From NCBI GenBank assembly GCA_021740915.1, contig JAIOYW010000007.1, forward strand, positions 1 to 64,000: DNA of 64,000 nucleotides, given 5' to 3'. This document shows, in pieces, positions 36,039 through 38,938 of the stretch. Each line of letters begins with the position of its first letter. The first letter of the stretch is position 1. This DNA comes from Ignavibacteriales bacterium (GTDB taxonomy: Bacteria; Bacteroidota; Ignavibacteria; Ignavibacteriales; Melioribacteraceae). A program made the translations under genes and the position numbers. Under the pieces are notes generated by a model. The model searched no databases. It was given only the letters and a program-made list of their open reading frames with translations, and was not told the DNA's origin.

Positions 36039-37328
36039 TTATAAACCGGAGTAATTCCCGCCGTAAAATAATTTCGAATTATTCATAACTCCGACTGATT
36101 TTCCTGTAAGTAATTTTTTGTCGAAAGGTGAGTTCTTACATTTTGATTTGAAATCCTTGATGTTCACAGTCCAGATCTGCGAAATATCAATCAGAGTTAA
36201 TTCAGCTTTTTCTCCAACCTTAATCTGCGGAACTGGCAGATTAAGAATTTTCCGGGGATTCACAGCAAATAAAGTAATAATTTTGCTTAAGGGTATTTTT
36301 CGTTTATGTACAAGTTCTGTCAGAGTAAGAGCCAATTCTGTTTCCAACCCAACAATTCCATCAGGTGCATAAATAAATTCCATTTCTTTTTCTTCGATCG
36401 CGTGCGGAGAATGATCACTCGTAATACAATCAATCGTTCCATCCCGGAGTCCTTCGATCACAGCATTGAGATCCTCCTCTGAACGAAGCGGTGGATTTAC
36501 CCGGAGATTGGTATCATACGATTTTAATGCTTCCTCGGTAAGAGAAAAATAATGTGGAGAAGTATCAGCGGTAATTTTGGATCCTTTTTCTTTGGCAGAT
36601 CTGATTATCTCTACTGCTCTTTTGGTACTAATATTTGAAAAATGAACTTTACCGCCAACGTAATCCGAAATTAATATGTCACGGACAATAATGAGTTCTT
36701 CAGCGACAGATGGATTAGGAGGCAATCCCAGTAAAGTCGAAAGAAATCCTTCGTTGGCAACACCACCACCAAGAGATTCCTCTTCACAATGTTCAATTAC
36801 GGGAAGGTCAAACATAATGGCGTATTCAAGCGCATTTTTAAGAAGTGATGCCGTTTTTACAGCCTTCTCGTCATCTGTAAAAGCAACTGCTCCAGCTTCA
36901 TGCAGTTCGGCAAGAGGGGCAAGTGCAGTACCTTTTCTTTCAAAAGAAACAGCGCCTGCAAGATGGACATCAACAAGATGGTCCTGTGCCTTGTGGCGGA
37001 TAAATCCAAGAACTTCTGCATTGTCAGCAATAGGTTTTGTATCAGGCATTGCCAGCACTGAGGTAAATCCCCCAGCGGCGGCTGAATTGCAGCCCGTTTT
37101 AATGGTTTCTTCATCTTCCCTGCCGGGTTCCCGTAAGTGAACGTGCATATCCATAAGACCAGGCACACAGTATATCCCCTCCAGATTATATACCTTCGCA
37201 TCTTTCAGATCGTCTTTTGTAAGTTCGCCAACCTTGCTTATAACTCCGTTTTCAACCAGGAGACTTGATTTGTTTTCGATACCGGAAACCGGGTCTAAAA
37301 TAATTGTGTTAATAAATGCTGTTTTCAT
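36039..37328 (-). CDS. pyrC: dihydroorotase
   Basis: The 429-residue type I dihydroorotase starts at ATG 37328 with AAGGGG upstream. The zinc-binding DMHVHLREPGRED lies near residue 60, the FTSVLAMPDTKP run follows, and SDHSPHAIEEKE near 300 holds the catalytic Asp. The enzyme closes carbamoyl-aspartate into dihydroorotate in pyrimidine synthesis. It is the third gene of a pyrR-pyrB-pyrC unit, ten bases after pyrB, and should share its regulation. Confidence 0.95.
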   Translation of the reverse strand: MKTAFINTIILDPVSGIENKSSLLVENGVISKVGELTKDDLKDAKVYNLEGIYCVPGLMDMHVHLREPGREDEETIKTGCNSAAAGGFTSVLAMPDTKPIADNAEVLGFIRHKAQDHLVDVHLAGAVSFERKGTALAPLAELHEAGAVAFTDDEKAVKTASLLKNALEYAIMFDLPVIEHCEEESLGGGVANEGFLSTLLGLPPNPSVAEELIIVRDILISDYVGGKVHFSNISTKRAVEIIRSAKEKGSKITADTSPHYFSLTEEALKSYDTNLRVNPPLRSEEDLNAVIEGLRDGTIDCITSDHSPHAIEEKEMEFIYAPDGIVGLETELALTLTELVHKRKIPLSKIITLFAVNPRKILNLPVPQIKVGEKAELTLIDISQIWTVNIKDFKSKCKNSPFDKKLLTGKSVGVMNNSKLFYGGNYSGL

Positions 37329-37337
37329 CAAAACCCC

Positions 37338-38258
37338 TTAATTCATTGTCCCAAGCAGATAAAGCACTGCCATTCTCACTGCAACCCCGTTAGTTACCTG
37401 ATCAAGGATTATCTGGTAAGGTCCATCTGCAACTTCAGAGGATATCTCAACCCCACGATTGATAGGTCCGGGGTGCAGGATTAGAATATTCGGATTGTAT
37501 TTTTCAAGTCTTTCAGAAGTGACTCCGAAATAATTATGATATTCTCTGAGGCTTGGAATTGTCGTACCAGCGTCGCGCTCAAGCTGAATTCTGAGAATGT
37601 TGAGAACATCATTCTCTGCAATCGCTTTGTTAATATCATGGTAAATCTTAACTCCGAGCATCTCAATTCCACGGGGAATCATTGTCGGCGGACCACAAAG
37701 CGAAACTTGCGCTCCCATTGTTTTCAATCCATAAATATTGGAAAGCGCAACCCGGCTGTGTGCTATATCGCCGATGATACAAACTTTCAATCCATCCAGT
37801 TTTCCAAGTTTTTCACGAATCGAAAACATATCAAGCAATCCCTGGGTTGGATGTTCATGCCTTCCATCGCCTGCATTAATAATATTCGCTTTAGAAATCC
37901 TCGTCAGAAATTGCGGCACACCTGAAGACTCATGCCGAACAACTATCATATCGACTTTCATTGCTTCAATATTCCTGACAGTATCTTTAAAAGTTTCACC
38001 TTTCTTTGTACTGCTGGTAGAAGCTGAAAAGTTAATAACATCGGCACTTAATCTTTTTTGAGCAAGTTCAAATGATATTCTTGTTCTGGTAGAACTTTCA
38101 AAAAAAAGATTAACTATGGTTTTCCCCTGAAGAGTTGGAACTCTTTTTATTGGTCTTTCAAGTACTTCCCTGAAAGTAACGGCCGTATCAAGGATATTCT
38201 GAATATCATCTTTCGGAACTCCAAAAAGACCAATAAGATGCCTGCTGGAAAGTGACAT
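37338..38258 (-). CDS. pyrB: aspartate carbamoyltransferase catalytic subunit
   Basis: The protein is about 306 residues from MSLSSRHLIG, with GGAGG five or six bases upstream. It has the carbamoyl phosphate site FESSTRTRISFE, the HPTQGLLDM motif and the HPGPINRGVEI motif near the C-terminus. This is the classical PyrB catalytic chain, which joins carbamoyl phosphate to aspartate. A regulatory chain (PyrI) is not next to it. The stop of pyrR and the pyrB start are only one base apart, so translation is coupled. The upstream in-frame ATG is ignored because it lies inside pyrR. Confidence 0.96.
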   Translation of the reverse strand: MSLSSRHLIGLFGVPKDDIQNILDTAVTFREVLERPIKRVPTLQGKTIVNLFFESSTRTRISFELAQKRLSADVINFSASTSSTKKGETFKDTVRNIEAMKVDMIVVRHESSGVPQFLTRISKANIINAGDGRHEHPTQGLLDMFSIREKLGKLDGLKVCIIGDIAHSRVALSNIYGLKTMGAQVSLCGPPTMIPRGIEMLGVKIYHDINKAIAENDVLNILRIQLERDAGTTIPSLREYHNYFGVTSERLEKYNPNILILHPGPINRGVEISSEVADGPYQIILDQVTNGVAVRMAVLYLLGTMN

Positions 38259-38259
38259 A

Positions 38260-38814
38260 TTAATCCTCCTCTTCTTCGGGTGACTCGATAAGGTAAACAG
38301 AGTCTTCACCATCAAGTTCAGCCAATTTTACTTTTATCTCTTCATTTATTGAAGTCGGAATATTTTTTCCAATGAAATCGGCTTTGATAGGTAGTTCACG
38401 ATGTCCCCTGTCAACGAGCACACAGAGTTGAATAGTATTTGGTCTTCCGAGATCCATAAGTGCATCAAGCGCTCCCCGAACAGTTCTTCCTGTATATAAC
38501 ACATCGTCAATAAGTATGATGTCTTTATCGTTCAGGTCACAAGTAATATTCGTAACAGAAACTTCGGGCTGTTTCAGCCTTCGCCTGAAATCATCACGAT
38601 AGAGTGTCACATCGAGAATCCCGAATGCAGGCTCTGAACCGTCAATTTCAGATATCTTTTCTCTCAACCGATGTGCAATAAATTCTCCGCGTGTGCGTAC
38701 TCCAATCAGAACAAGGTTATTCAATCCCTTATTTTTTTCAAGAATTTCATGCGCAAGGCGGGTAATAGTGCGACGGATACCGTCTTTGTCGATAATTTTA
38801 GCTTTTATTTTCAT
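38260..38814 (-). CDS. pyrR: PyrR pyrimidine operon regulator / uracil phosphoribosyltransferase
   Basis: The 184-residue protein has the PRPP loop IILIDDVLYTGRTVRGAL near residues 95-112, the strongest mark of the PyrR family. In other bacteria PyrR binds pyr mRNA in response to UMP/UTP and controls transcription or translation, and it also has weak uracil phosphoribosyltransferase activity. Here it is the first full gene of the pyr unit. Its Shine-Dalgarno GGAGG lies within the hairpin described at 38817-38850, and its start overlaps the stop of a 20-residue leader peptide. I do not see the Bacillus PyrR-binding consensus. Confidence 0.92.
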   Translation of the reverse strand: MKIKAKIIDKDGIRRTITRLAHEILEKNKGLNNLVLIGVRTRGEFIAHRLREKISEIDGSEPAFGILDVTLYRDDFRRRLKQPEVSVTNITCDLNDKDIILIDDVLYTGRTVRGALDALMDLGRPNTIQLCVLVDRGHRELPIKADFIGKNIPTSINEEIKVKLAELDGEDSVYLIESPEEEED

Positions 38815-38873
38815 ATAAAAAAACCTCCTTGACTCACGTCTTGGAGGTTTAAATAATTAATGGAATTTTTCAT
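38811..38873 (-). CDS. 20-residue pyr operon leader peptide (candidate)
   Basis: The open frame reads MKNSINYLNLQDVSQGGFFI and then TGA. A good Shine-Dalgarno (AAGGAG) lies six bases before the ATG. Translation runs straight through the hairpin at 38817-38850, and the two Phe codons near the end (TTTTTT) form most of the hairpin's T-tract. The TGA shares two bases with the pyrR ATG. The layout resembles the PyrL leader of enterobacterial pyrBI, although the sequence is unrelated. I did not find other codon clues in it. Confidence 0.6.
   Translation of the reverse strand: MKNSINYLNLQDVSQGGFFI
38817..38850 (-). promoter_or_regulatory. hairpin with terminator form covering the pyrR ribosome-binding site
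   Basis: On the minus strand, AAACCTCC (38850-38843) pairs with GGAGGTTT (38828-38821). An AA/AA internal loop and a three-base stem, GAC with GTC, lead to a GTGA tetraloop, which fits the GNRA class. Seven T residues end the element. The GGAGG half is the pyrR Shine-Dalgarno, nine bases before its ATG. It could act as an attenuator, a translation block, or both. Confidence 0.7.
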
Positions 38874-38938
38874 ATTACTCCTTGTTTATCTCTCAGAATA
38901 AACTTAAAGGTTAAAAATACAATATCAAAAATAAATTG

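Follow-up and report, generated by a model that had tools for sequence, protein, structure and literature searches.

A PyrR-type leader upstream of pyrR-pyrB-pyrC in Ignavibacteria may act as a transcription attenuator through translation of a leader reading frame

The window analysed here is a stretch of 64,000 nucleotides from an Ignavibacteriales bacterium of the Melioribacteraceae (contig JAIOYW010000007.1, positions 1 to 64,000), and it carries three pyrimidine genes on the minus strand. The pyrR gene (38260–38814) predicts a protein of Pfam PF00156 that matches PDB entries named PyrR, the best being an ancestral reconstruction (E 2.3e-65), with 1a3c (6e-62) and 1ufr (3.3e-61), which we take to be the B. 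subtilis and Thermus PyrR structures, also matched. Its closest named records come from Melioribacteraceae and other Ignavibacteria. Downstream are pyrB (37338–38258; PF02729 and PF00185), predicted to encode aspartate carbamoyltransferase, and pyrC (36039–37331; PF01979 and PF12890), predicted to encode dihydroorotase. The pyrB start was set by choice at the ATG at 38258, the open reading frame list giving a TTG further upstream. The order by Pfam is pyrR-pyrB-pyrC, and PyrR is thus encoded within its own operon.

Upstream of pyrR on the same strand, a promoter-type box that fits TAnnTTTG (TATTTTTG; 38926–38933), presumably a Bacteroidota-type -7 element, starts 23 nt upstream of a predicted PyrR-binding loop (38880–38910) and would place the RNA start just 5′ of it. 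The loop (CCUU-UAA-GUUUAUU-CUGAGA-GAUAAAC-AAGG) consists of a lower stem, CCUU/AAGG, a UAA bulge in the 5′ strand, seven upper-stem pairs and a hexaloop, CUGAGA, of the form CNGNGA. The AAGG of its 3′ arm is also part of AAGGAG (38878–38883), the Shine-Dalgarno sequence of a leader ORF of 20 codons (MKNSINYLNLQDVSQGGFFI; 38811–38873). The ATG of this ORF (38873–38871) lies 4 nt beyond AAGGAG and its TGA (38813–38811) overlaps the pyrR ATG (38814–38812) as ATGA. Within the ORF is a terminator-like hairpin (38822–38849; -14.1 kcal/mol) composed of 7 bp (AACCUCC/GGAGGUU), a 2x2 internal loop (AA-AA) and 3 bp capped by a GUGA tetraloop of GNRA form (GAC-GUGA-GUC). A tract of seven U (38817–38823) follows, the first two being paired in the stem, and the 3′ arm includes GGAGG (38824–38828), the predicted pyrR Shine-Dalgarno, 9 nt before the ATG. 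The 90-nt leader is more stably folded than its shuffles (z -2.76; 2/200 as good); a simple terminator scan of the window did not report the hairpin at 38849–38822. The 20-codon frame with a good Shine-Dalgarno, its passage through a hairpin of terminator form and the seven Ts had all been described in the first-pass annotation and are confirmed here. The annotation had missed the PyrR-binding loop upstream. Its interpretation is partly borne out, in the leader frame that is conserved as far as the hairpin.

An Rfam search of 211 bases gave RF00515 at 38914–38815 on the minus strand (47.1 bits, E 8.3e-6), and a default search of the whole window did not report it. As the gathering score is 54 bits, the loop is called PyrR-type by its form, place and covariation, not as an Rfam-certified member. 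Searches of 58 relatives at E 0.05 returned 62 matches in 50 genomes, with 2 relatives above the gathering score; 47 of the 62 lie upstream of pyrR, one per genome, and the best E among the 15 found elsewhere is 0.0027. The gathering score conceals such sites, as 2/58 relatives pass it and 47/58 have a match upstream of pyrR. The matches away from pyrR (for example G030:C5:66617-66743, G059:C64:13951-14090 and 13 more) are weak and may reflect chance or other pyrimidine genes. Of 14 control genomes, RF00515 matched those of Bacillus subtilis, Thermus composti and Lactococcus lactis.

PyrR is common among relatives, with a match at E 0.001 in 94/97 (90 strong, E below 1e-60, and 4 weak) and, across the class Ignavibacteria, a match at E 1e-30 in 159/294 genomes. 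Upstream regions of pyrR were taken from the 90 strong relatives, 60 class matches hand-picked across families and 80 named-record loci, and regions shorter than 60 nt were dropped. The 230 loci gave 212 distinct upstreams, of which 148 form the class set, 127 of these having the loop and 123 both loop and hairpin; 12 distinct upstreams of named records, mostly Ignavibacteria, stand outside the class counts. The loop is present in 58/59 upstreams from the same family, 33/34 from two sister families and 36/55 from other families, and the search pattern did not find it in 21/148. A hexaloop NNGNGA closed by at least 2 pairs was parsed in 106/123 loci (17 unparsed), and its first letter is C in 105 of the 106. 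Upper-stem pairs 3, 4 and 5 are formed in 105, 105 and 103 of the 106 and each exceeds all 1000 shuffles, these numbers being somewhat favoured because the parse picked the candidate with most pairs. Both sides of the upper stem change together, for example from A-U to G-C or from C-G to U-A. The loop thus appears to be PyrR-type. It supplies a candidate sensor, which makes the first-pass observation stronger than described, and it overlaps the Shine-Dalgarno of the leader. The TAnnTTTG box recurs 12–40 nt upstream of the loop in 25/56 loci of the same family (1.8 in shuffles), all 25 at 19–23 nt, as well as in 18/31 loci of the sister families (1.0 expected) and 6/36 of other families (0.4 expected).

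A start codon is found 0–12 nt past the loop in 111/123 class loci (94 ATG, 12 TTG and 5 GTG). In 62 of the 111 it lies 0–2 nt after the AAGG of the loop, which is too near for that AAGG to serve as a Shine-Dalgarno, and PyrR at these loci would act by covering the site. Use of such sequences is not universal in this genome, since of 42 long ORFs of the window, each taken from its first ATG, only 13 have an SD-like 4-mer in front. Of the 111 loci with a start, 5 have a spacer too short for a 12-nt test of frame openness, leaving 106. In 98 of these the leader frame meets no stop until 12 nt or less from the hairpin, compared with 39 and 55 for the other two frames and 54.2 in shuffled spacers (P 6.5e-22); when each genus is represented by a single locus, the count is 62/66 against 34.9 expected (P 2e-14). 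Counting began at the second codon, as counting from the first is biased by ATGA starts, which place a stop in the +1 frame. The three frames, leader first, are open in 49, 21 and 23 of 53 loci in the same family, 25, 3 and 12 of 25 in the sister families, and 24, 15 and 20 of 28 in other families, where the signal is weaker.

The position of the leader stop varies widely. It lies 1–14 nt before the hairpin in 27 of the 111 loci, inside the hairpin in 28 and between hairpin and pyrR in 7, overlaps the pyrR start as ATGA in 18 and otherwise in 1, and falls up to 30 nt past the pyrR start in 18 and further in 4; only 8 leaders end over 14 nt short of the hairpin. What seems to be conserved is the reach of a ribosome to the hairpin and not the place of the stop, as would be expected if the position of the ribosome mattered and not the peptide. 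No conserved leader peptide was seen by eye, and the spacers are 50% A. Verrucomicrobia (L103–L111) show a loop, an ATG 3–4 nt after it and a hairpin before pyrR in 8/9 loci (L106 unparsed), with the leader stop 5 nt beyond the pyrR start in seven. They were rejected as independent evidence for the frame, all three frames being open in 8/8.

The hairpin and its T run are similarly widespread. With no hairpin condition applied, a T run of at least 6 occurs between loop and pyrR start in 114/127 loop loci (4.3 expected), and a hairpin of -8 kcal/mol or lower stands right before the longest T run in 109/127 (4.6 expected), a measure that allows for A between stem and T run. The hairpin finder itself required five T of eight, so that T counts on its hairpins are partly built in; a run of at least 6 is present in 75/79 loci whose hairpin adjoins pyrR and in 34/44 whose hairpin is distant. 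Together these counts favour termination of transcription as the role that the loci share. The median class hairpin is -13.3 kcal/mol. A hairpin pattern with the 2x2 internal loop was found in 30/58 genomes, at one place in each, 29 of the 30 being just upstream of pyrR, and the reversed control gave 3 matches. The form with 5 bp, a 2x2 internal loop and 3 to 5 bp is seen in 53/123 loci from 33 genera, the internal loop being GC/AA in 31, AA/AA in 9 and GA/GA in 6; a plain terminator needs no such loop. In four class loci (L045, L158, L169 and L176) the finder detected no hairpin beside the loop. On inspection by eye L176 seems to carry one, and the other three may be translational forms.

Sites resembling a Shine-Dalgarno also occur around the hairpin. 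In many relatives, an SD-like 4-mer lies no more than 14 nt before it (40/56 loci of the same family, 15/31 of the sister families and 5/36 of the others, with 2.8, 1.5 and 1.7 expected), and elsewhere in the spacers such 4-mers are almost absent (0 in 907, 0 in 421 and 1 in 665 nt, respectively). Of the 79 loci whose hairpin adjoins pyrR, 56 have this upstream site, and in 41 such sites lie to either side of the hairpin. The window is among the 20/79 with the 3′-arm site alone, and no Shine-Dalgarno precedes its hairpin in the manner of the split site of T4 gene 25. In the family, the upstream site accompanies 38/39 adjacent hairpins against 2/17 distant ones, and in the sister families 15/30 adjacent ones. 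The association with hairpin position is strong when all loci are counted (Fisher 1e-12) and in families f1-3 when a single locus stands for each genus and class (39/7 vs 1/8, P 4e-5). On a PyrR tree of 82 rows it is not significant, with 7 changes and just 3 supported independent pairs, and is thus suggestive. Where the hairpin is distant, a separate SD-like site was found by a loose motif in 34/44 loci; a stricter scan placed an SD site past the U-tract in 29/123. The upstream site would be a median 12 nt from the AUG with the hairpin closed and is 37 nt away along the linear RNA, and the 3′-arm site is mostly at 11 nt. In many relatives, the window not being one of them, the hairpin looks like a component of the ribosome-binding site of pyrR.

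These comparisons separate the parts of the first-pass reading that are general from those particular to the window. Among the relatives, the leader start (111/123) and the hairpin (123/127 loop loci) recur and the frame is conserved, which bears out the part of that reading in which a leader frame extends to a hairpin of terminator form upstream of pyrR. The GNRA tetraloop is real in the window and was rejected as a conserved feature, being found in only 21/123 hairpins. Likewise, the ATGA overlap of leader stop and pyrR start is present, and a conserved function for it was rejected with 18/111 loci, which weakens the coupling that had been proposed. GGAGG does lie in the 3′ arm, but the translation block read from it loses ground with an SD-like site upstream of the stem in so many adjacent loci.

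The reading we consider reasonably probable, based on conserved form and position, is that of a transcription attenuator controlled by PyrR and acting via translation of the leader. At high UMP, PyrR-UMP would bind the loop, close to the 5′ end of the RNA, and this clamp would keep ribosomes from starting the leader. The uncovered hairpin would then fold, and transcription would end at the U-tract before pyrR, as the form and conservation of the hairpin suggest. At low UMP, PyrR would be released and a ribosome would translate the leader, whose frame is conserved, up to or into the hairpin; with the ribosome there, the hairpin could not form and RNA polymerase would enter pyrR-pyrB-pyrC. We infer every step from PyrR binding to termination. 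As the 3′ arm in the window is the pyrR Shine-Dalgarno and stop and start overlap, translational coupling may add to control here, though not as the conserved part.

Attenuation of the Bacillus type would dispense with the ribosome: when PyrR is absent, the loop's 3′ half would pair with the 5′ arm of the terminator as an antiterminator, and the leader frame would be idle. The order of loop and terminator is indeed that of RF00515, but the pairing over 122 class loci has a median of only -4.7 kcal/mol (z +0.35, 2% at p<0.05), against -13.3 kcal/mol for the hairpins and -7.2 to -16.4 kcal/mol in six Bacillota control sites. The best duplex in the window is -6.2 kcal/mol (p 0.13). Power is limited, as just 2/6 of the Bacillota sites reach p<0.05, and 16 Syntrophomonas-type pyrR leaders (median z -0.37) are unenriched; a single Calditrichia site gave -5.2 kcal/mol (p 0.65). 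Absence of a Bacillus-type antiterminator in Ignavibacteria is for this reason likely rather than proven. An antiterminator would also leave the open leader frame unexplained, and we regard this arrangement as unlikely. Sensing of UTP by the leader peptide in the manner of pyrBI, with no role for PyrR, would account for a leader frame that runs through a terminator, but the PyrR loop overlaps the leader start and a run of T5 or longer between leader start and hairpin is found in just 5/111 loci. There is therefore no U-rich pause tract, and sensing of this kind is very improbable.

Control might also be mainly translational, the hairpin hiding the pyrR Shine-Dalgarno until translation of the leader opens it and ribosomes restart at pyrR, with little termination. 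GGAGG in the 3′ arm and the ATGA overlap, seen in the window and in 18/111 class loci, are as this would predict, as are the four loci in which the finder saw a loop and no hairpin, L176 perhaps excepted. It fits poorly with T runs that persist when the hairpin lies far from pyrR and with SD-like sites that lie outside the stem in most adjacent loci, and we judge it improbable. Finally, the leader frame might never be translated, its openness stemming from A-rich composition or some other constraint on the spacer. The A content, the lack of a peptide conserved by eye and the weak frame signal in distant families all point that way; the excess of open leader frames is measured against shuffles of the same spacers and against the other two frames, and makes this account distinctly unlikely.

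Beyond attenuation through leader translation, a fuller arrangement can be put forward tentatively for Ignavibacteria, although we think it rather doubtful as a whole. PyrR would gate translation of the leader with no antiterminator, and the terminator hairpin would be built into the pyrR ribosome-binding site, so that pyrR could be translated with the hairpin open, from the 3′-arm site, or closed, from the upstream site. If so, one hairpin would stop transcription and yet spare translation of the transcripts that escape, and the window, with the 3′-arm site alone and stop/start coupling, would be derived.

A related system is reportedly that of Thermus, for which Van de Casteele and others are said in 1997 to have proposed, upstream of pyrR-pyrB-pyrC, control by PyrR without an antiterminator in which a ribosome translating the leader prevents the terminator. 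The leader ORF of the window likewise begins at the PyrR loop and runs to the terminator, the leaders being compared by description only. The present loci add comparative support from many genera, and many relatives carry a further SD-like site upstream of the hairpin. Given the reported Thermus model, and the RF00515 match in Thermus composti, the pairing of PyrR with a leader frame appears not wholly new and less unusual than at first reading: the annotation was right that the two occur together, now with a PyrR-type loop, and that such a pairing lacks precedent is doubtful. In Mycobacterium smegmatis, Fields and Switzer reportedly found in 2007 that PyrR represses translation at the ribosome-binding site. 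Here the ribosome-binding site concerned belongs to the leader. The loop in the window is not at the ribosome-binding site of pyrR itself: 65 nt, which include the hairpin, separate its end from the pyrR start. The pyrBI operon of E. coli has no PyrR and senses UTP through a U-rich RNA polymerase pause. It shares with the present loci a leader ORF, pyrL, and a terminator that coupled translation prevents from forming, as outlined in parts of PMC5021804. The loci studied here have no U-rich tract.

For B. subtilis, passages of PMC7430163 give the PyrR loop consensus ARUCCAGAGAGGYU and a model of loop, antiterminator and terminator. PyrR, a binding loop and a terminator are common to both systems; the antiterminator, by a test of limited power, is not supported here, and here the leader ORF starts at the loop. 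Excerpts of PMC3014915 describe structures in T4 genes 38 and 25 that cut the spacing of Shine-Dalgarno and AUG from 22 to 5 nt and from 27 to 11 nt, respectively. The adjacent relatives with an SD-like site upstream of the hairpin resemble these, but the T4 structures aid translation without a terminator, and the window lacks the upstream site. The parts are known and the combination is rarely described. A 2026 review, in the portion available (PMC13328217), ties PyrR to Gram-positives and has other mechanisms as commoner in Gram-negatives, and the sections of PMC2965389 available treat PyrR and leader peptides separately. Open-licence literature gave no match for Ignavibacteria with PyrR, and the titles and abstract openings among the matches listed include no description of PyrR with a leader ORF in Ignavibacteria.

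Within a class close to Bacteroidota, a PyrR-type leader is widespread and seems to work through the ribosome. If this is true, one RNA-binding protein would drive different switches in different phyla, and these leaders would offer a clean test case of antitermination by the ribosome in which a protein, and not codons or UTP, is the gate.
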